Positions 49,477 to 58,710 are shown, numbered from the stretch's first letter. The stretch: 64,000 nt of DNA from Planctomycetota bacterium (GCA_027083445.1 JALWOP010000180.1:1-64000), one strand, 5' to 3'. Made by a program: numbers and translations. Notes: generated by a model from the sequence alone, not told the origin.

Positions 49477-50678
49477 CGAGCGCGACGATTTCTCCCGAAG
49501 CCGTCCTCGTGCGCTACGCCGAGATCGCCCTCAAGAAGGGCAACCGGCCGGTCTTCGAGCGCGCCCTGGTCCAAAACCTCAAGGAGGCGGGCTCGACCCT
49601 GTCGCCCCTGCGGATCGAACGACGCTTCGGCCGCATGACCGTCATCCCCGAGCGTCGGGTCGCACAGGTCGCCCGGCGCCTGGCGGACGTCCCCGGGGTC
49701 AAGACCGTTTCTCCCGTCTACGGCGCGGAGAGCACCGACCCCGACGACATCGCGAGGGTGGCCAAGCTACTCGTCGAGGAGGCACTCGCGGATCATCCCG
49801 GTCCCTTCCCGGTCACCTTTCGCGTCCGCGCGCGGCGCTCCGAAAAGCGCTTCCCCATGACCTCGCGCGAGCTCGAGCACTTCCTGGGACCGCGGGTGCT
49901 CCCCGGCCCCGAACGCATCAAGGTCGACCTGAATCACGCCGAGCTCACCCTGGGAATCGAGGTGCGGACGGAACGCACCTGGCTCTACCTGAGGACCTAT
50001 GCGGGACCTGGGGGGCTGCCCGTAGGGACCCTGGGACGCGGTCTGGTGCTGCTCTCGGGAGGCATCGACTCCCCCGTGGCCGCCTACCTGGCCATGAAAC
50101 GCGGCTGCCGCGTGGGGTATGTCTCCTTCCACTCCTCTCCCTATATCGGCGAGGGGTTCGTCAAGAAGGTCTCCGACCTGGCCCACGCCCTCGGTCGCTA
50201 CCAAGCCAGTGCCAAACTCTTCGTCGTGCCCTTTGCGGCGATCCAGACCGCCATCCGGGACCACGCGCCCGAGCCCTATCGCACCGTGCTCTACCGCCGC
50301 TTCATGCAGCGCATCGCCGATCGGCTGGCGGAGGAGCACCGCTACCAAGCCTTGATCACGGGTGAGGCCCTCGGTCAGGTCGCAAGCCAGACCTTGGAAA
50401 ACATGGAGTGCATCGGGGCCGCGACGAGTCGCATGGTCCTGCGCCCCCTACTGACCTACGACAAGGAGGAGGTGGTCGACCTGGCTCGCCGCATCGGCAC
50501 CTTCGAACTCTCCAACATTCCCGAGCCGGACTGTTGCACGGTTTTCCAGCCCGCTCGACCCATCATCAAGGGCACCCTCGAGGAATGCGCCGCCGCGGAG
50601 GCGAAGCTCGATGTCGACGCGCTCGTGGCGGAAGCCGTCCAGGGCTGCGAGGTACAATCGATCGTCTACGAGGGCTGA
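49473..50678 (+). CDS. thiI: tRNA 4-thiouridine synthase ThiI
   Basis: A 401-residue enzyme. It has the N-terminal ferredoxin-like and THUMP domains (residues 1-165) and the PP-loop ATPase with LLSGGIDSPVAAYLAMKRG near residue 195, then ALITGEALGQVASQT and EPDCCTVFQP. The C-terminal rhodanese domain of E. coli ThiI is absent, as in many bacteria, so sulfur must pass directly from the coupled cysteine desulfurase. GTG 49473 overlaps the upstream stop. It is followed with one-base overlap by a membrane protein gene. Confidence 0.94.
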   Translation: MTSATISPEAVLVRYAEIALKKGNRPVFERALVQNLKEAGSTLSPLRIERRFGRMTVIPERRVAQVARRLADVPGVKTVSPVYGAESTDPDDIARVAKLLVEEALADHPGPFPVTFRVRARRSEKRFPMTSRELEHFLGPRVLPGPERIKVDLNHAELTLGIEVRTERTWLYLRTYAGPGGLPVGTLGRGLVLLSGGIDSPVAAYLAMKRGCRVGYVSFHSSPYIGEGFVKKVSDLAHALGRYQASAKLFVVPFAAIQTAIRDHAPEPYRTVLYRRFMQRIADRLAEEHRYQALITGEALGQVASQTLENMECIGAATSRMVLRPLLTYDKEEVVDLARRIGTFELSNIPEPDCCTVFQPARPIIKGTLEECAAAEAKLDVDALVAEAVQGCEVQSIVYEG

Positions 50679-52636
50679 TGAATCGCACCACTGCGCTGCT
50701 CCTGGCAATGGCGGCCCTCCTGGCCCATGCCCTTGCCGTGCATGTGGACCCCAGCGGGCGCCTCGGCCAACCCTTCGAGGAGGCACACGCTGCCTTCCGT
50801 CTGGCGCGCAACCTGGTTCGAGAAGGGGCGCTCGCATGGAACATCACACCGGCGGGCACCGAGGGGGGACTGGGGGCCCATGCCTCCCCCCTGCTGGTCC
50901 TGGTGGCCACCCTGGCGGAACGGCTCTACCTCCCCGTGAACCGCTTCGCGCAGCTCGCAGGGGTCTTGGCGGGCCTGCTCACCGTCTCGGCCTCGGCGCG
51001 CTTCGCCACCGACCGCAGCGCGGGGGTGATCCCCGCTCTCTTGCTGGTCTGCTCGGGAGTCTTCGCGGCAGCCACCGCCAGCGGCACCGAGTTTGCGCTG
51101 GCCGCCCTGGCCCTGACCGCGGCTTACGTCGCCCGGGAGCGGGGTCGCGCCCCCTCCCTGGCCGTGGCCCTGACCCTCCTCGTGCTGGTGCGGGTCGAGG
51201 GGCTCGTGCTCGCAGGGCTCCTGGGTCTCCTGACCCTCCTCCAGCGCCAGGGTCCTGCCAATCCGCGTGGCCCCCTGCCCCTCTCGTCTCTGCTACCGGC
51301 CGCCATCACCGGCGCAGTCCTGCTCTATCTGCCCGACGGGAACGGAGGCCACCTCTACGCCCACCGCCTGGGCACACTCTTCACCACGGGCCACCTCGAA
51401 GCGGGGGGCCGCTATCTGGCCGATTTCCTCTTCACGGCGGTCACGCCCTTCCTCTTGATCTTCCCCTTGGGAGCTCTCCTCTTGGGCCGATTGGGGGGGG
51501 AGGCCTGGCGTGCGCTGCTCCTTGCCGGAGCTTGGATCGCCCTGGTCACCCTGGAAGGCGGGGGAGGTCGCGGCACCTACCCCTTCACGATCGCCCTGAT
51601 GCCGGCCCTGCCCCTGCTTGCCATCGCCATCCAATTCGGCGTCATCGCCGCTCTCGACAGCCGGCGCAGGGGACTGGAGCCCCTCTCTTGGGCCGCGCTC
51701 CTCCTGGTCGCACTCCTCTCGGCCCTTCCGAGCAAGGCCCTGAGCACCCTCGCGCGACATGAGGCGTGGATCGGTGCCTCCATCTCCGACCCCGGGCTGG
51801 GTCGCCACCACCTGCGCGGCCGTGCCGCCCTCCAAGAGGAGCAGCAGCGCACCGCGGAGCTGCGCGACCTGGGCCGTTTCCTGCGCGAGAACGTCGACCC
51901 GAGTCTCTCGCTGCTCAGCCCCTGGAGCGGAGCACTCGGTTACCTGGCCGACCGCCCCGTCTTGGACCTCAGCGGGTGCCGCACGGGCTACGGACTCGAC
52001 CTCATCACCTCCCTCGAACGAGCACCCGATCTGATTCTGCCCTGGCACCGGGATGGGGAGAGCCTGGTTCTGCCGCGCGGAGGGCTGGCCCCCATCGATC
52101 CGATCTGGCAGTGGCACCCGGGAGAGGCCTCCCCCGAGGAACGCCGCAGGGTGCAGGCCATCCTCGATGCCTATGAGCTGGTCACCCTTCCCGTCCCAAG
52201 CGAGCGCGATCCTCGACGGATCGGAGGAGAGACGATGCGTCTGCTCCGCCGCCGGTCACTCGAGTGTGAACCGCGCCTCGTGCTGGAGCGTGACTCGGAT
52301 GGGTCCGCCGTCGTCGTGCGCGCCCTGCCCCCGCTCGGATCGTCGAGCGGGCCACAGCTCGTGCACCTCGAACTCATCGCCCGGGACTCGCTCGGCGAAC
52401 ACTGGTCCGTCGATCCACGCGGCCACCTGCACTCCGGATCCGGCCCTCTAGCACGCTCTTCGATCGTCGTCGGACTGGAAGGGGATCGGGAGACCCAGCT
52501 CTTCCGCTTCACCCGGGTCGAGGCGCCGAACGGAGCGCCCCTGGTCGAGCTCCAAGCCACCCTCCTCAACCCCCGCCTGCGCCGACGCAACCCCCTCTCC
52601 GAAGCCTGCTCCAGTGTGCTCTTCGAACTCGAGTGA
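50678..52636 (+). CDS. GT-C-like polytopic membrane protein
   Basis: A 652-residue protein with about ten to twelve hydrophobic segments in the first 380 residues and a soluble C-terminal half. Loop 1 has QPFEEAHAAFRLARNLVREGALAWN, the pattern of GT-C transferases of the AftB-like group (acidic pair followed by a 'R-x-x-x-N-x-x' helix), and the later DGNGGHLYAHRLGTLFTTG segment fits too. The soluble part carries ESLVLPRGGLAPIDP and SIVVGLEGDRETQLFRFTRVE, which I do not recognise. Its ATG overlaps the thiI stop by one base, although the functional link is not obvious. Confidence 0.65.
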   Translation: MNRTTALLLAMAALLAHALAVHVDPSGRLGQPFEEAHAAFRLARNLVREGALAWNITPAGTEGGLGAHASPLLVLVATLAERLYLPVNRFAQLAGVLAGLLTVSASARFATDRSAGVIPALLLVCSGVFAAATASGTEFALAALALTAAYVARERGRAPSLAVALTLLVLVRVEGLVLAGLLGLLTLLQRQGPANPRGPLPLSSLLPAAITGAVLLYLPDGNGGHLYAHRLGTLFTTGHLEAGGRYLADFLFTAVTPFLLIFPLGALLLGRLGGEAWRALLLAGAWIALVTLEGGGGRGTYPFTIALMPALPLLAIAIQFGVIAALDSRRRGLEPLSWAALLLVALLSALPSKALSTLARHEAWIGASISDPGLGRHHLRGRAALQEEQQRTAELRDLGRFLRENVDPSLSLLSPWSGALGYLADRPVLDLSGCRTGYGLDLITSLERAPDLILPWHRDGESLVLPRGGLAPIDPIWQWHPGEASPEERRRVQAILDAYELVTLPVPSERDPRRIGGETMRLLRRRSLECEPRLVLERDSDGSAVVVRALPPLGSSSGPQLVHLELIARDSLGEHWSVDPRGHLHSGSGPLARSSIVVGLEGDRETQLFRFTRVEAPNGAPLVELQATLLNPRLRRRNPLSEACSSVLFELE

Positions 52637-52696: not shown

Positions 52697-54550
52697 TCAC
52701 CCGATCCCGAATTCGCGGATCCGGCGATAGAGCGTGCTCTTCCCGACCCGCAGGAGGCGCGCTGCCTTCAGTCGGTCACCTCGGCAGGCGTAGAGCGCAC
52801 GCACAATGGCCTGCTTCTGATAGAACTCGAAGCTGATCGGGTCCGAGGAGGTGATAGCCCAGGGTGGCCGGTGCCCGCCGCGCTCTGCCGCAGGCACTGG
52901 GCGATCTCCCGTCACGATACCCGCAGCAGCACACTCGCGGGCGACCTCCTCGAAGGCCTGCGGGAGGTGACCCCGAGTCACCGGCCCTCCTCCGGCACGG
53001 GAGGCCAGGATTCGCATCACACGTTCGAGTTCCTCGTAGTTCCCCGGCCAGGGGTACTGCCGCAGGAGGAGTCGCACATCTTCTTCAACGGCCGTGATGC
53101 CATGCATCTCTAGAGCCTCGTCGATGATCGACTCGAGTTCAGCGCCGCGGTTGCGCAGAGCGGGCACCTCGATCCTCCTGGACAACAGGATTTCGGCCAG
53201 ATCCAAAGAGACGAGCCCGCGGGCCGCCAGCTCTCCCAGATCCGCGCTTGTGGTCGCTACCACGCGAGCGCGCAACGGCGGGGGAGTTCGCGATCCTCCA
53301 GCCGGCAGCATGCCGCTACGTAGGATCTCTGCGAGGCGTACTTGCAGTTCGGCGGGCAGGCAGTCGATCTCCTCCAGGAGCACGCTCCCCTCTCCGGCCA
53401 GCGCCAGCAAGCCCGGCCGGTGGATTCCGTCGAATCCCGAGCGATCACTTCCCAGCAATTCGCGCTCGAGTGTCTTGGCTTGCAGGCTACGACACTTGAG
53501 GCTGAAGAAGGGTCCGAAGTCGTCCCGGTGCACACTCTGGTAGTGAAGAATGCGAGCGAGGAGCGCACGACCGCTCCCCCGTTCCCCCACCAGCAAGACC
53601 GGCTCGCGACCTTGGGCGTGGGTCACGATGCTCTGCCGTAGCCGGGTGGCCACGGGGCCCCGCCCCCGGATGCGATCGAGCCCGAACGTCTCCCCAGCCT
53701 GCTGTAGCAGAGGATTCTGTACAGCAGCCCGTACAAGGACCGTGGCTCCTCCGACGCTCTCTTCTACACCACTCGTCTGCGCCAGGAAGATGCAGGTCCC
53801 GCCGCTGACGAGTGGATAACTCGAAGCCCAGCCAGCATGTTCGGCGCCGTCGCTCGTCGTGACCTCGAAGCGGTGATCGTGCAGTGGTGTCCAGAGGGAG
53901 GAGAATGCGAAGCGCCCCAGGTCCGCATCCGGCAAGATGCTGTCGAGGTGAGCCCCGGCGCAGTCCGCACCCAGGAAGATGCGGGCATCGCGACTCGCGC
54001 TACGCACCCGACCTTCGTCGTTGGCGATCAAGGCAGCGGTAGGGCAGGAGGTCAGGCGGGGCTCTGCCTCACTCCCTTGTTCCCCCGCGAGACGTTCGCT
54101 CATCCTTCGTTGCTGGGAGCGCAAGGTCGACTCCCGCTCCTTCAGGGTGGCGAGCCGACGAGCACTCGCCAGGGACGCCTCCACAATAGACTCGAGCAGA
54201 TCCCCTTGAGAGGAAGTCACCACTGCATGCGCGCCGGCCTCCAGAGCTCTCTGAACAAGACCCTCATTCTCGTGCAAGAGCGAGTAGACGATCACGGGGA
54301 CATAGATACTCGAGACCACCCCGAAACGCTCTGAACAGAGCGCACGACACGTATCGACCCCACTCGGCTCTTCTCCCGGTTGGGCTGCAATCAAGATGCA
54401 GTCGTAGCCGAGCCCCCCAATCCCTTCCCCCTCGCAGTCTTCGAGCTCCAGGTGCTGCGCAACGCTCACGTGATGACCCGCATCGGACAAGCGGCTTCGG
54501 ACGATGCTTCGATCTGCGGAATCCGAAGCGATGATTAGCAAGTTTCCCAC
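52697..54550 (-). CDS. Degenerate NtrC-like regulator (REC-PAS-like-AAA-Fis), short form
   Basis: A 617-residue protein. Residues 1-125 resemble a receiver domain, but the phosphoacceptor site reads ILIAAQP (Ala near 55). A coiled coil (RRLATLKERESTLRSQQRR) and a PAS-like domain follow, then an AAA+ domain from ~300 to 530. Walker A is GERGSGRALL, with Arg328 in place of Lys; Walker B is VLLEEID; GAFTGA is replaced by DRSGFDG, so sigma-54 contact is not expected. The Fis-type helix-turn-helix (DRLKAARLLRVGKSTLYRRI) is intact. It is probably a DNA-binding regulator controlled by protein-protein or other signals. Confidence 0.85.
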   Translation of the reverse strand: MGNLLIIASDSADRSIVRSRLSDAGHHVSVAQHLELEDCEGEGIGGLGYDCILIAAQPGEEPSGVDTCRALCSERFGVVSSIYVPVIVYSLLHENEGLVQRALEAGAHAVVTSSQGDLLESIVEASLASARRLATLKERESTLRSQQRRMSERLAGEQGSEAEPRLTSCPTAALIANDEGRVRSASRDARIFLGADCAGAHLDSILPDADLGRFAFSSLWTPLHDHRFEVTTSDGAEHAGWASSYPLVSGGTCIFLAQTSGVEESVGGATVLVRAAVQNPLLQQAGETFGLDRIRGRGPVATRLRQSIVTHAQGREPVLLVGERGSGRALLARILHYQSVHRDDFGPFFSLKCRSLQAKTLERELLGSDRSGFDGIHRPGLLALAGEGSVLLEEIDCLPAELQVRLAEILRSGMLPAGGSRTPPPLRARVVATTSADLGELAARGLVSLDLAEILLSRRIEVPALRNRGAELESIIDEALEMHGITAVEEDVRLLLRQYPWPGNYEELERVMRILASRAGGGPVTRGHLPQAFEEVARECAAAGIVTGDRPVPAAERGGHRPPWAITSSDPISFEFYQKQAIVRALYACRGDRLKAARLLRVGKSTLYRRIREFGIG

Positions 54551-54718
54551 GCAGTTCTCTCCTTATACCAGTGGTGACTTGGCTTCATCTTGACCTACGA
54601 TCCGAACCCCCTTCGGTTACAGCTTGGAAATCGCGGGGAAGGCGCACACGACACGGGACCTGCGGCTTACCGCAGATCCCTGGATCCGGGCTCGGCCGAA
54701 TGCGAGCCGAGACACCGA

Positions 54719-55402
54719 TCAAGCGGAAGATCCGTGAACCGGAATCCTGTATCCCTCACCAACGACCGTCTCGATCAGGGAGCCGTGTCGATTCTCGTCG
54801 AGCTTGCGACGCAACCGCGCAATCTGCACCTCGACGATCTTGGTTCCCGGGTCGAACTCGATATCCCAGACTCGTCGCAGCAATTCCCTGCGCGAGACCG
54901 TGCGGCCGCGAGCTTGAACGAGGGCACCCAGAACATCGAACTCCCTTGGGCTCAGTTCGATGCGTTCCTCGCCTCGCTCGACGATACGGCTGGCCAGATC
55001 GACGCGCAGGTCGCCCACGCTGAAGGTCGGCAGGGACTCGCGCCGCCGCATCACCGCTTCAATACGCGCGACGAGTTCTTCACCCGCAAAGGGCTTGATG
55101 ATGTAATCGTCGGCGCCCATGCGCAGACCCCGCACCCGATCCTCGATGGAGTGGTGGGCGGTCAGGAAGATGGTCGGTTTCTCGTTCCCGGCCTCGCGCT
55201 GCTGGATGAGAAAATCCCACCCTGATTCCCGAGGCATGGTGATATCGAGCAGCATGAGATCGATCTCGCCCCGTTCCGCGTCCAGACGGTTGCGTGCCTC
55301 ATCAGCTCCGGCAACCGCCACGCTCTCCATATCGTTCCGCTCGAGAACGCGCTGAATATAACGGCGAACGCCGGGATCATCATCGACTACTAGGATTCTC
55401 AT
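54719..55402 (-). CDS. OmpR/PhoB-family response regulator
   Basis: A 227-residue regulator with an intact receiver: acidic pocket VVDDD (7-9), phosphoacceptor Asp53 (LLDITMP), Thr81 and Lys103 (IIKPF). Residues ~130-222 form the winged helix (LSPREFDVLGALVQARG ... VEVQIARLRRKL ... TVVGEGYRIP). No histidine kinase gene is in the window. It lies between the two degenerate NtrC-like genes, all on the same strand, with gaps of 63 and 168 bases. Confidence 0.94.
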   Translation of the reverse strand: MRILVVDDDPGVRRYIQRVLERNDMESVAVAGADEARNRLDAERGEIDLMLLDITMPRESGWDFLIQQREAGNEKPTIFLTAHHSIEDRVRGLRMGADDYIIKPFAGEELVARIEAVMRRRESLPTFSVGDLRVDLASRIVERGEERIELSPREFDVLGALVQARGRTVSRRELLRRVWDIEFDPGTKIVEVQIARLRRKLDENRHGSLIETVVGEGYRIPVHGSSA

Positions 55403-55465
55403 AATGCCTGAATTCGAGGAAGCTTGACCTCGATGCCGAGCTCTGGAGGCGCCCCCCTAGGCCAT

Positions 55466-57382
55466 CTAGGTGATGCCGAATTTCTTGAGTTTTCGGTAGA
55501 GGGTGCTCTTGCCCACATGCAGCAGGCGCGCGGCAGCGAGCTTGTCGCCTCCAGTGCAGTCGAGTGCCCGCAGAAGCACCTTCTTCTCGTAGACGTCGAA
55601 ATCGATGGGGTCATCCTCGGTGATGCTCCAAGCCTTCTGCCCTTCATGCGAGACGAGGTGGGTCCCGGGAACAGGCGTGGGGCGCTCCGCGGGCGAGGGC
55701 GGCCCCTGGGAGGGGATGATCGCGACGGGAGAAATCTCGGTCGCAAGTTCACGCACCGGCTGGGTCAGATGGCTGATCTCGATCACTCCGTTGCGCGCCA
55801 TTCCACAGGCGTGCTCCATGCAAGCCTCGAGCTCCGCCAGGTTGCCCGGCCAGGGATACTCCGCCAGTACCGCTTCTACCTGGGGGGAGAGGGATTCGAC
55901 CCCATGAGCGCACCCGAAGCGCAGCAACATGGCCCGTGCCAAGCGGACGATGTCCTCCCGCCTCTCTCGCAAGGGCGGCACCCGGAGAACGCGCGCCCCC
56001 AGGCGCTGCGCCAGAGCCCCATGGAAGGCTCCCTTGGCGACGAGAGCTTCCAGCCCCTCCGAAGTCGATGCGATGATGCGACATTCGAGCCGCTCCTTGC
56101 GCCGGGCCCCCGGCGGAAGGAGGGTGCCCCGCTCCAAGACCTCTTCCAGGCGGGCCTGCAGCCTGGTGGGCAAGGCGGAAACCTGCGCCAGGTAGAGGGT
56201 GCCGTCCTGGCACAGAGCCAAGAGGCCCGGATGGGACTCGCCCTCCGAATCCCCCGCCTTGCCGAAGAGTTCCTGCTCGAGGGCTTCCTCGGAGAGGGCC
56301 GAGCAGTTCAGCTCGAGGAACGAACCGGTCCGCCGCCCGGAGTAGTGCAGGATGCGCGCCAGGAGCTCCTCGCCCGAACCCCGCTCGCCATGCAGGAGGA
56401 CCGGCCCATTGAGGTCGGCCAGGCGGGCGATGTCGCTGCGCAGAGCCAGGGTGGCCGCGGAAGATCCGATGATCGCCCCGGGGACATAGGTCATCCGGGC
56501 GGCCTCGACCAGGGCCCCCACCTCCTGGCGCGGGACCATCCCATCCGCGGAGGAGTATCCGCCCGAGAAGTGGCAGCGTCCCAGGTCACAGAAGAGCACG
56601 ACCCTGAGGGGCGAGGATTCCCCGGCGGTGGTGGGCAGAACCGATGCGATGAGTGAGCGGGGGCTACGGTCGCGACGCTCGGAGGTCTCGAAGCGGAAGC
56701 CTTGCCTGGGGGCGGTTCGGGCGTCGCGCACGAAGGCCTCGAGGCCGCAACCGGGAGCGATCTTGCCCAGACTCGTCCCCTGAATGCGGGGACCGAGCAG
56801 CTCGAAAGCCCCCCGGTCGCAGTCCCGCACGATCCCTTCCGAATCGACGAGCAGGACCCCGTCGGGATGACCCGCCGCCAGCTTGCGGTTGGCGCGGGCC
56901 ACCGGGTCGGAGGCCGGTGCCGTGGCCTCCGCCAGGCGAGAATCGGCCTCGCAGAGCCGGTGGTTTTCCCGTTCGAGCAAGCGACACTGCTCCGCGAGCT
57001 CGTCACCCTGGGACTTGATCCGCAGGTGCACGTCGAGGATGCGGTCGAGGTGCGGAAGATGGGTCCGGTCGATGTACGCCTCGCAGCCCATGTCATACAT
57101 GCGCTGGGCCTGCTCGAGGGTCGCCTGCTTGGAGGCGTAGACCAGGATGGGTACACGGTTCAACCCGGGAGTGGCCTTCAACCGCTTGCAGACATCCGCA
57201 GCGCTGATCCCGCTGCCGAGGTCCATCGAGAGCAGGATCAGGTCGGCACCGCTGGCGCGTGCCTCGACCAGACCCCGTGCCCCACCCTCGGCGACCAGAA
57301 CCTCGTGCCCGAGATCCGCGAGTCGACTGCGCATGACCAGTCGCTCGCCTGGATCACCTTCGATCAGTAGGATGCGTGCCAC
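55466..57382 (-). CDS. Degenerate NtrC-like regulator (REC-PAS-like-AAA-Fis), first gene of trio
   Basis: A 638-residue protein started by GTG 57382, which has a strong AGGAGGAGG ribosome binding site upstream. The receiver-like domain has Ser52 in place of the phosphoacceptor (LILLSMDL). A PAS-like domain (~170-300) follows. In the AAA+ domain Walker A reads GERGSGEELL, with Glu338 at the Lys position, Walker B reads TLYLAQVS instead of LDE, and GAFTGA is missing, so ATP hydrolysis and sigma-54 activation are very unlikely. The C-terminal Fis domain (DKLAAARLLHVGKSTLYRKL) is intact and nearly identical to that of the partner at 52697. The pair are paralogues. Confidence 0.87.
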   Translation of the reverse strand: MARILLIEGDPGERLVMRSRLADLGHEVLVAEGGARGLVEARASGADLILLSMDLGSGISAADVCKRLKATPGLNRVPILVYASKQATLEQAQRMYDMGCEAYIDRTHLPHLDRILDVHLRIKSQGDELAEQCRLLERENHRLCEADSRLAEATAPASDPVARANRKLAAGHPDGVLLVDSEGIVRDCDRGAFELLGPRIQGTSLGKIAPGCGLEAFVRDARTAPRQGFRFETSERRDRSPRSLIASVLPTTAGESSPLRVVLFCDLGRCHFSGGYSSADGMVPRQEVGALVEAARMTYVPGAIIGSSAATLALRSDIARLADLNGPVLLHGERGSGEELLARILHYSGRRTGSFLELNCSALSEEALEQELFGKAGDSEGESHPGLLALCQDGTLYLAQVSALPTRLQARLEEVLERGTLLPPGARRKERLECRIIASTSEGLEALVAKGAFHGALAQRLGARVLRVPPLRERREDIVRLARAMLLRFGCAHGVESLSPQVEAVLAEYPWPGNLAELEACMEHACGMARNGVIEISHLTQPVRELATEISPVAIIPSQGPPSPAERPTPVPGTHLVSHEGQKAWSITEDDPIDFDVYEKKVLLRALDCTGGDKLAAARLLHVGKSTLYRKLKKFGIT

Positions 57383-57468
57383 GGATCCCTCCTCCTTCTG
57401 GGCCCGTCGGGGGGGTGCTCCGGGCATGTGCGCCGGCGCCTGTCCAGTTTCCCACCTCTGGTACAGTA

Positions 57469-58710
57469 GTGGATATCCCCAGCCCCCATGATCTTCTCTT
57501 CGGGGAAAAAGTCGACCGCGCGTTGCGTTCGATTCCCAAGAATGCGGACAGCTTGGGGGTCATCACCCACCTCAGGGGGTGCCTGGGAGCCACCCTCGCC
57601 CGGCGGGCGGCGCGCCTCCATGAATTGCGTCTTCGTTCTAACCAGAGGTTTCCAAAGGGTTTCCTGCCCTTCTTGACCCCCAAGGGACTCGAGCAGGCGA
57701 CCTCCCACGTCGTCGCCGAGGCCCGGGCGAAGCGCCTGCGCGAGCTTCTTGGGCCTTCCCGAATCTGGGACGCCACCTGCGGAATCGGAGCGGATTCACT
57801 TGCCCTGGCTGAACGGGGTGACGTGGTGGCAACCGAACTCGACCCCGAGCAAGCTGCCTGCGCGGCAGCGAACCTGGCCCAGGCCGGCTCACCGGGAAGA
57901 GTCCTCCGCGCCGACGCGCTCCTGCCCCCCTTCGAGCCGAAGAGGATGGCGGCGGTCCTGCTCGACCCGGACCGACGCCCGCGGGGGAAGCGCGAGGGTG
58001 ATCCCGAGCGTTGGAGCCCACCCCTATCGAGTTGTCTCTCCCTCGCCGAGCGGGTCGGTGCCGGCTGCCTCAAACTCCCACCCGCCTTCGAGCTTCCCGA
58101 TCCGGGAAGAGGTGTCGCCCAGCGTTGGGTCTCCCTGGACGGAACCCTGCGGGAATACTCTCTTTGGACGGGTCGGCTGGCCCGCGACCGCTCCCCCCGC
58201 GCGGCGATCCTGCTCACCAGCGACGGGAAGAGGGAGGTCCTGGCCGGTGAGATCGAAGCGACCCGGCCCCTCCACCCCGATGCGGCCCGGCAGGTGCGCT
58301 GGCTCGGAGAGGTCGACCCAGCGGTCCTACGCTCCGGCCTCTTGGGGCTCGCGGCGCGCCTCTGCGGCCTCGACCCCCTGGCCCCGCGCAGCGCCTACCT
58401 GGGTGGGCTCGACCCCCCAACCCCACAGCCCTGGCTCAAGACCTGGCGGGTCCTGGGCACCTCGGCCCTGGACCGCAGGCGGCTGCGCAGACTGCAGAGG
58501 GAGCACGACATCGGACCCCTGACCGTCAAGAAGCGCGGACACCCCGACTCCGCCGAGACACTCGCCCGGCGCTTCGCCGGGCCGGGGAGACGCCCCGGCC
58601 TGCTCGCGGTGACCCGTCTGGAGCGGGGGCACCTGGCCCTGCTCCTGGAGGACTCCCGTCCCCCCGCCAGCCCACCCCCTGGAGACCGAGAGGGGCCGGA
58701 TGGACCCTAA
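57469..58710 (+). CDS. SAM-dependent methyltransferase with THUMP-like domain
   Basis: A 413-residue protein. Residues ~95-200 are a class I methyltransferase: IWDATCGIGADSLALAERG is motif I, VVATELDPEQAACAAANLAQAG motif II, and VLLDPDRRPRGKR the DPPY-like catalytic motif. The C-terminal part (RVLGTSALDRRRLRRLQREHDIGPLTVKKRG) is the THUMP-like domain of putative RNA methyltransferases. GTG 57469 is the preferred start because the conserved region begins nearby; an earlier in-frame start at 57376 would overlap the divergent regulator's leader. The RNA target is unknown. Confidence 0.8.
   Translation: MDIPSPHDLLFGEKVDRALRSIPKNADSLGVITHLRGCLGATLARRAARLHELRLRSNQRFPKGFLPFLTPKGLEQATSHVVAEARAKRLRELLGPSRIWDATCGIGADSLALAERGDVVATELDPEQAACAAANLAQAGSPGRVLRADALLPPFEPKRMAAVLLDPDRRPRGKREGDPERWSPPLSSCLSLAERVGAGCLKLPPAFELPDPGRGVAQRWVSLDGTLREYSLWTGRLARDRSPRAAILLTSDGKREVLAGEIEATRPLHPDAARQVRWLGEVDPAVLRSGLLGLAARLCGLDPLAPRSAYLGGLDPPTPQPWLKTWRVLGTSALDRRRLRRLQREHDIGPLTVKKRGHPDSAETLARRFAGPGRRPGLLAVTRLERGHLALLLEDSRPPASPPPGDREGPDGP

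Follow-up and report, generated by a model that had tools for sequence, protein, structure and literature searches.

Motor-degenerate NtrC-type regulators at a conserved locus in a Planctomycetota family

Organisation of the regulator locus

We analysed a 64,000-nucleotide stretch of DNA (JALWOP010000180.1:1-64000; hereafter, the window) from a Planctomycetota metagenome-assembled genome of 4.79 Mb in 477 contigs. The minus strand of the window carries three consecutive regulator genes, C, B and A in that order, separated by intergenic gaps of 63 and 168 bases (Table 1). A and C are paralogues that combine receiver (REC), PAS, AAA+ and Fis-type DNA-binding domains, and both are degenerate at the sites on which NtrC-type motors depend. 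The gene between them encodes, as had been proposed, a canonical PhoB-like regulator: B has a REC domain with its aspartate, joined to a Trans_reg_C domain.

The original prediction, made from the sequence alone, held that A and C lack the phosphoacceptor (Ala55 and Ser52), the Walker A lysine (Arg328 and Glu338) and the GAFTGA motif, and that C has also lost both Walker B acids; every one of these residue calls was verified. Walker A reads GERGSGRALLA in A and GERGSGEELLA in C, the region of GAFTGA reads ELLGSDRSGFDGIHRPG and ELFGKAGDSEGESHPG, respectively, and Walker B reads EE instead of DE in A and AQ in C, where neither acid is left. Pfam nevertheless matches both proteins to Sigma54_activat, the lid and HTH_8, and homology to Sigma54_activat and the Fis helix-turn-helix extends to all 38 aligned members of the group. 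Neither protein has the GAFTGA motif of NtrC-class enhancer-binding proteins, a functional set of ATPase residues (Walker A Lys, Walker B Asp-Glu, sensor and arginine finger) or the REC aspartate of a canonical response regulator.

AlphaFold models show intact REC, coiled-coil, PAS, AAA+ and Fis folds, with a mean predicted local distance difference test score of 85.9 for C and 84.4 for A. The REC domains are folded with high confidence and lack the aspartate, which places both proteins among the pseudo-receivers, and their periodicity in GC content at third codon positions is consistent with genuine genes. The nearest solved structures are NtrX, NtrC1, FleQ, PspF and VpsR.

Table 1. Features of the window (positions counted from its first nucleotide)
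Feature	Coordinates	Strand
C: degenerate REC-coiled coil-PAS-AAA+-Fis regulator, 638 aa, GTG start	55466..57382	-
C, Ser52 at REC phosphoacceptor site	57227..57229	-
C, Walker A remnant GERGSGEE, Lys to Glu338	56366..56389	-
C, Walker B remnant Ala399-Gln400, Asp-Glu lost	56183..56188	-
C, Fis-type helix-turn-helix, residues 595-637	55472..55600	-
B: canonical OmpR/PhoB-type response regulator, 227 aa	54719..55402	-
A: degenerate REC-PAS-AAA+-Fis regulator, 617 aa, GTG start, paralogue of C	52697..54550	-
A, Ala55 at REC phosphoacceptor site	54386..54388	-
A, Walker A remnant GERGSGRA, Lys to Arg328	53564..53587	-
A, Walker B Glu-Glu, Asp to Glu	53369..53374	-
A, Fis-type helix-turn-helix, residues 574-616	52703..52831	-
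Candidate operator TTCCCACCTCTGGTAC, 10/12 match to TTCCCA-N4-TGGGAA, divergent C/methyltransferase intergenic region	57449..57464	.
Second 10/12 dyad match, within methyltransferase reading frame; may be chance	57533..57548	.
Third 10/12 dyad match, within methyltransferase reading frame; may be chance	57756..57771	.
Methyltransferase with THUMP-like domain, divergent family-conserved neighbour, likely start GTG 57469	57469..58710	+
Membrane protein of ~650 aa adjoining the regulator, family-conserved, no Pfam match	50678-52636	+
ECF (extracytoplasmic function) sigma-70 regions 2 and 4 fused to C-terminal carboxypeptidase-regulatory-like domain, 920 aa	3513-6275	-
Long reading frame, no Pfam match, 1110 aa	31210-34542	+
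Long reading frame, no Pfam match, 1034 aa	34784-37888	+

Orthology, motor loss and selection across the family

Full-length orthologues of C, sought in 60 relatives, are present in most genomes of the window's Planctomycetota family. Named relatives of the window's genome include Planctomycetes bacterium Pla163 and Pla86. The surrounding order is conserved: 326-aa protein, NifS, ThiI, membrane protein, regulator, THUMP-like methyltransferase, UDP-glucose dehydrogenase, TPR protein and ECF sigma factor. In the reverse direction, a canonical sister-family protein used as query found the regulator locus as the only full-length match in family genomes among the matches listed (39-33% identity). 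Because the forward and reverse searches agree, orthology is supported in both directions.

Comparison of 66 family copies with six sister-family outgroup proteins revealed extensive erosion of the motor. GAFTGA is kept in a single copy and absent from the other 65, a loss relative to the sister families that is far beyond chance. The Walker B aspartate remains in 6/66 copies, the sensor I asparagine in 2/65, the putative arginine-finger arginine in 11/66, the Walker A lysine in 36/66 and the REC phosphoacceptor in 24/63, the last being mostly gone in one large clade that includes A and C. The six sister-family orthologues are canonical throughout, except for GAFTGA variants in two of them (GSFTGA and GAFSGA) and one histidine at sensor I. 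Descent from an enhancer-binding protein combined with loss of GAFTGA is a trait that the family shares with regulators of the TyrR/VpsR kind.

L103, alone among the family copies in having an intact ATPase as well as GAFTGA, branches from within the family in the tree. Restoration of its motor by gene conversion was not supported, the AAA+ domain of L103 being nearest to those of degenerate sister copies (56% and 54%). This proximity makes the L103 motor look vertically kept, and the simplest reading of the sequences would therefore be retention in one lineage with repeated losses elsewhere. Recent decay, which the original prediction had expected to show as relatives retaining both the lysine and GAFTGA, or as degraded reading frames, fits poorly in the main: although one relative has the full motor and about half have the lysine, the decay is old and recurrent, and no degraded reading frames were seen.

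Most family genomes carry one copy of the regulator, and the duplication together with the PhoB neighbour occurs mainly in one subclade. At four loci (L098, L100, L146 and L154) there is a further copy that has diverged more (26-29% identical to C), lies beside the first or at the same locus and lacks Walker B as well as most of its GAFTGA region. Two tandem Fis-type domains near the family type were also found on one contig, off the main locus (L234, G066:C6, 2124-2483).

Sigma-54 is present in 37 of the 38 genomes searched, the window's own included and usually in two copies, so lineage-wide loss of sigma-54 was rejected as an explanation. The window's genome also retains about 12 strong canonical activator domains. 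In this Planctomycetota family, and in its order, most genomes have two rpoN genes.

Selection has continued to act on the degenerate proteins. Whole-protein ratios of nonsynonymous to synonymous substitution rates (dN/dS) in close pairs of degenerate copies range from 0.03 to 0.24, some pairs being near synonymous saturation; together with the intact reading frames, these values reject recent pseudogene decay. The corresponding ratio of nonsynonymous to synonymous differences (pN/pS) is 0.12-0.36 for the AAA+ core, which is thus less constrained but not free, and 0-0.18 for the almost frozen Fis domain. Conservation is ordered differently in the two groups: domain identity in the sister families is 61% for AAA+, 50% for the lid, 47% for Fis, 45% for REC and 22% for PAS, versus 68% for Fis, 44% for PAS, 39% for REC, 36% for the lid and 34% for AAA+ in the window's family. 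Judged by these identities, the motor has ceded its place as the most constrained part to the DNA-binding Fis domain and to PAS.

The most extreme members have dispensed with the motor altogether. Three species of one genus (g22) encode at the same locus an intact protein of ~233 aa that consists of a REC domain without the aspartate, a linker and a Fis domain, with PAS and AAA+ gone. Its dN/dS is 0.14-0.16 overall and 0.04-0.12 for Fis, indicating strong purifying selection. An equivalent REC-Fis protein (Fis dN/dS 0.05) occupies the same locus in two species of a second genus (g65). In a neighbouring-gene tree, g22 is sister to the window's genome (support 98), whereas g65 groups as sister with a genome that carries the full-length regulator in two copies (support 96); the tree was built by a quick method, so these placements are good but not final. 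Since the two genera are placed apart, two separate deletions are implied.

Collectively, family-wide orthology, purifying selection, the continued presence of sigma-54 and the two motor deletions strongly support one part of the original proposal, a new sigma-54-independent mode in retained and selected proteins. The other part, in which the A/C pair itself was the unit of innovation, is not supported, most family genomes having a single copy.

A candidate operator in the divergent promoter

When 53,248 gapped dyads were scanned without a seed over 45 non-redundant upstream regions, TTCCCA-N4-TGGGAA ranked first, occurring in 16/45 upstream regions versus 0-2 in control regions. Across 920 kb of loci, 21 of the 49 sites with at least 10/12 matches lie no more than 350 bp upstream of the regulator, as do 8 of the 10 with at least 11/12. 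Exact dyads are rare genome-wide, and three of about ten in the family genomes sit at the regulator gene; a wide regulon built on exact dyads was rejected, there being too few such sites genome-wide. A coding artefact is unlikely, given that the phase of the dyad relative to the reading frame varies. From its position, symmetry and size, we infer that the dyad is an operator for the Fis domain.

Sigma-54 promoter signatures were not enriched upstream of the regulator, where observed scores equal those of shuffled sequences, and a sigma-54 promoter at this position was accordingly rejected.

The Fis domains of A and C had been described as near-identical, but their identity is 55-60%, and near-identity is confined to the recognition helix (VGKSTLYRK/R). 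A and C may compete for a shared operator; only C has a candidate operator directly upstream.

Further along the window, a 920-aa protein fuses sigma-factor regions to a carboxypeptidase-regulatory-like domain, and two long reading frames are without a Pfam match (Table 1).

Mechanism, alternatives and relation to known systems

We consider it probable that A and C are lineage-specific, motor-less NtrC-type regulators that act as sigma-54- and ATP-independent DNA-binding autoregulators in the manner of TyrR or VpsR. The sequences show that a REC-PAS-AAA+-Fis activator, still canonical in the sister families of the order, was stripped of its sigma-54 contact and ATPase residues in almost all members of this family. 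Selection meanwhile preserved the locus, reading frame, fold, PAS domain and, above all, Fis domain, and two lineages dispensed with PAS and AAA+. A and C may dimerise through the phosphorylation-insensitive REC domain and the coiled coil, the degenerate AAA+ fold serving at most as an oligomerisation scaffold. The Fis dimer would then bind TTCCCA-N4-TGGGAA dyads in the divergent promoter, allowing the regulator to control the C-B-A operon that encodes it. The gene for the THUMP-like methyltransferase would probably be controlled as well, transcription in both cases being by a housekeeping-type RNA polymerase. Occlusion, that is, autorepression, seems more likely than activation, and the signal would probably arrive through the conserved PAS domain or through protein level instead of phosphorylation of A and C.

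With less assurance, we lean towards a broader proposal: within one family, a sigma-54 activator of the NtrC type was naturally and repeatedly converted into a regulator without a motor. Contact with sigma-54 and hydrolysis of ATP would have been lost first and phosphorylation next, before PAS and AAA+ were physically excised. For most of the series, the DNA-binding domain would have been retained together with an operator at the same promoter.

Several observations weigh against the autoregulator model, and some of them favour other explanations. The intergenic dyad of the window matches at only 10/12 positions and is not unique there, a strong dyad (at least 10/12) occurs in only about one third of upstream regions, a scan of the intergenic region in the motor-deleted genomes found no strong dyad, and a search for a clear -35/-10 promoter did not find one. 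The dyad also often overlaps the methyltransferase start codon, and its 6-bp stem with a 4-nt loop could form in RNA. Instead of serving as the regulator's operator, it might act on the methyltransferase gene, either as a hairpin in the RNA or as a binding site for a different factor. We regard this as doubtful: the arm sequence is largely conserved, the phase against the methyltransferase frame varies and the size suits a dimer site of the Fis type. As to the proteins, the nearest relatives of A and C reach 43-48% identity at best, so that the selection measured is that of the group as a whole, and retention of the Walker A lysine in 36/66 copies means that nucleotide binding may matter in many relatives, though not, by sequence, in A and C. 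The degenerate pocket could still bind a nucleotide or second messenger and form oligomers that activate sigma-70 promoters as Rhodobacter capsulatus NtrC or VpsR does. The AAA+ fold is retained in most genomes and remains under some constraint, and the nearest PDB matches include FleQ and VpsR, both of which bind cyclic di-GMP. This possibility seems rather unlikely for A and C, in which Arg and Glu replace the Walker A lysine and C is without both Walker B acids, and two lineages have deleted the motor while the protein is still selected.

The ~12 canonical activator domains and the sigma-54 of the window's genome could suggest that A and C are dominant-negative or modulatory subunits, tuning sigma-54 transcription within mixed oligomers with intact NtrC-type activators. 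Such a role is improbable: the motor-deleted forms persist without an AAA+ contact surface, the sigma-54 promoter signature is absent upstream and conservation is highest in Fis and PAS, not in AAA+. Plain pseudogenisation, in which the genes decay without function, would account for the many catalytic residues lost in mosaic, genome-specific patterns, and we give it very little credence in view of the complete copies with intact frames, dN/dS well below 1, near-invariant Fis domain and fixed synteny. For clades with close pairs, these sequence comparisons indicate that it is already refuted.

Single enhancer-binding proteins that work without sigma-54 are known; the present series bears on how such a protein changes its mode. 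The genomes contain sigma-54, and their dozens of orthologues at one locus span the range from fully canonical to motor-deleted. The sequence in which functions disappeared, what a dead AAA+ domain still does and the retention of DNA specificity thereby become directly testable. In the open-access papers searched, we found no description of orthologues at a single locus that grade, across a whole family, from an intact motor to none. The series also cautions against taking Pfam Sigma54_activat matches, or tallies of sigma-54 activators in Planctomycetota, as measures of sigma-54 regulation, which both overstate.

FleQ retains its ATPase residues and sigma-54 activation, unlike A and C. The Pseudomonas protein (PDB 8p53, 5exx) is the best PDB sequence match to C and shares its Fis domain, and its REC is listed as a pseudo-receiver (PMC12632262). 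Aspartate-less or pseudo-receiver response regulators are well established (PMC4395418, PMC12632262) and resemble A and C in joining a receiver fold without Asp to a DNA-binding output; they differ in that the output here is a degenerate AAA+-Fis module, or Fis alone after motor deletion. VpsR of Vibrio cholerae (PDB 7v2b) is likewise a REC-AAA+-Fis protein without GAFTGA that acts at sigma-70 promoters and does not need ATP, according to the summary in PMC10274813. It keeps the aspartate and binds cyclic di-GMP, whereas A and C are without the aspartate and have a PAS domain.

Enhancer-binding-protein paralogues without GAFTGA act at sigma-70 promoters in TyrR, DhaR, HupR, R. capsulatus NtrC and Caulobacter NtrC (PMC3162934, PMC10274813). 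Like A and C, these proteins have the NtrC-type AAA+ and Fis layout, have lost the sigma-54 loop and were kept as regulators. In the cases described, the AAA+ domain is still present, and several of these proteins also retain phosphorylation or ATP binding. Unlike them, the family described here has also lost the phosphoacceptor, Walker A and Walker B, has done so recurrently and includes two lineages in which the motor itself is deleted.

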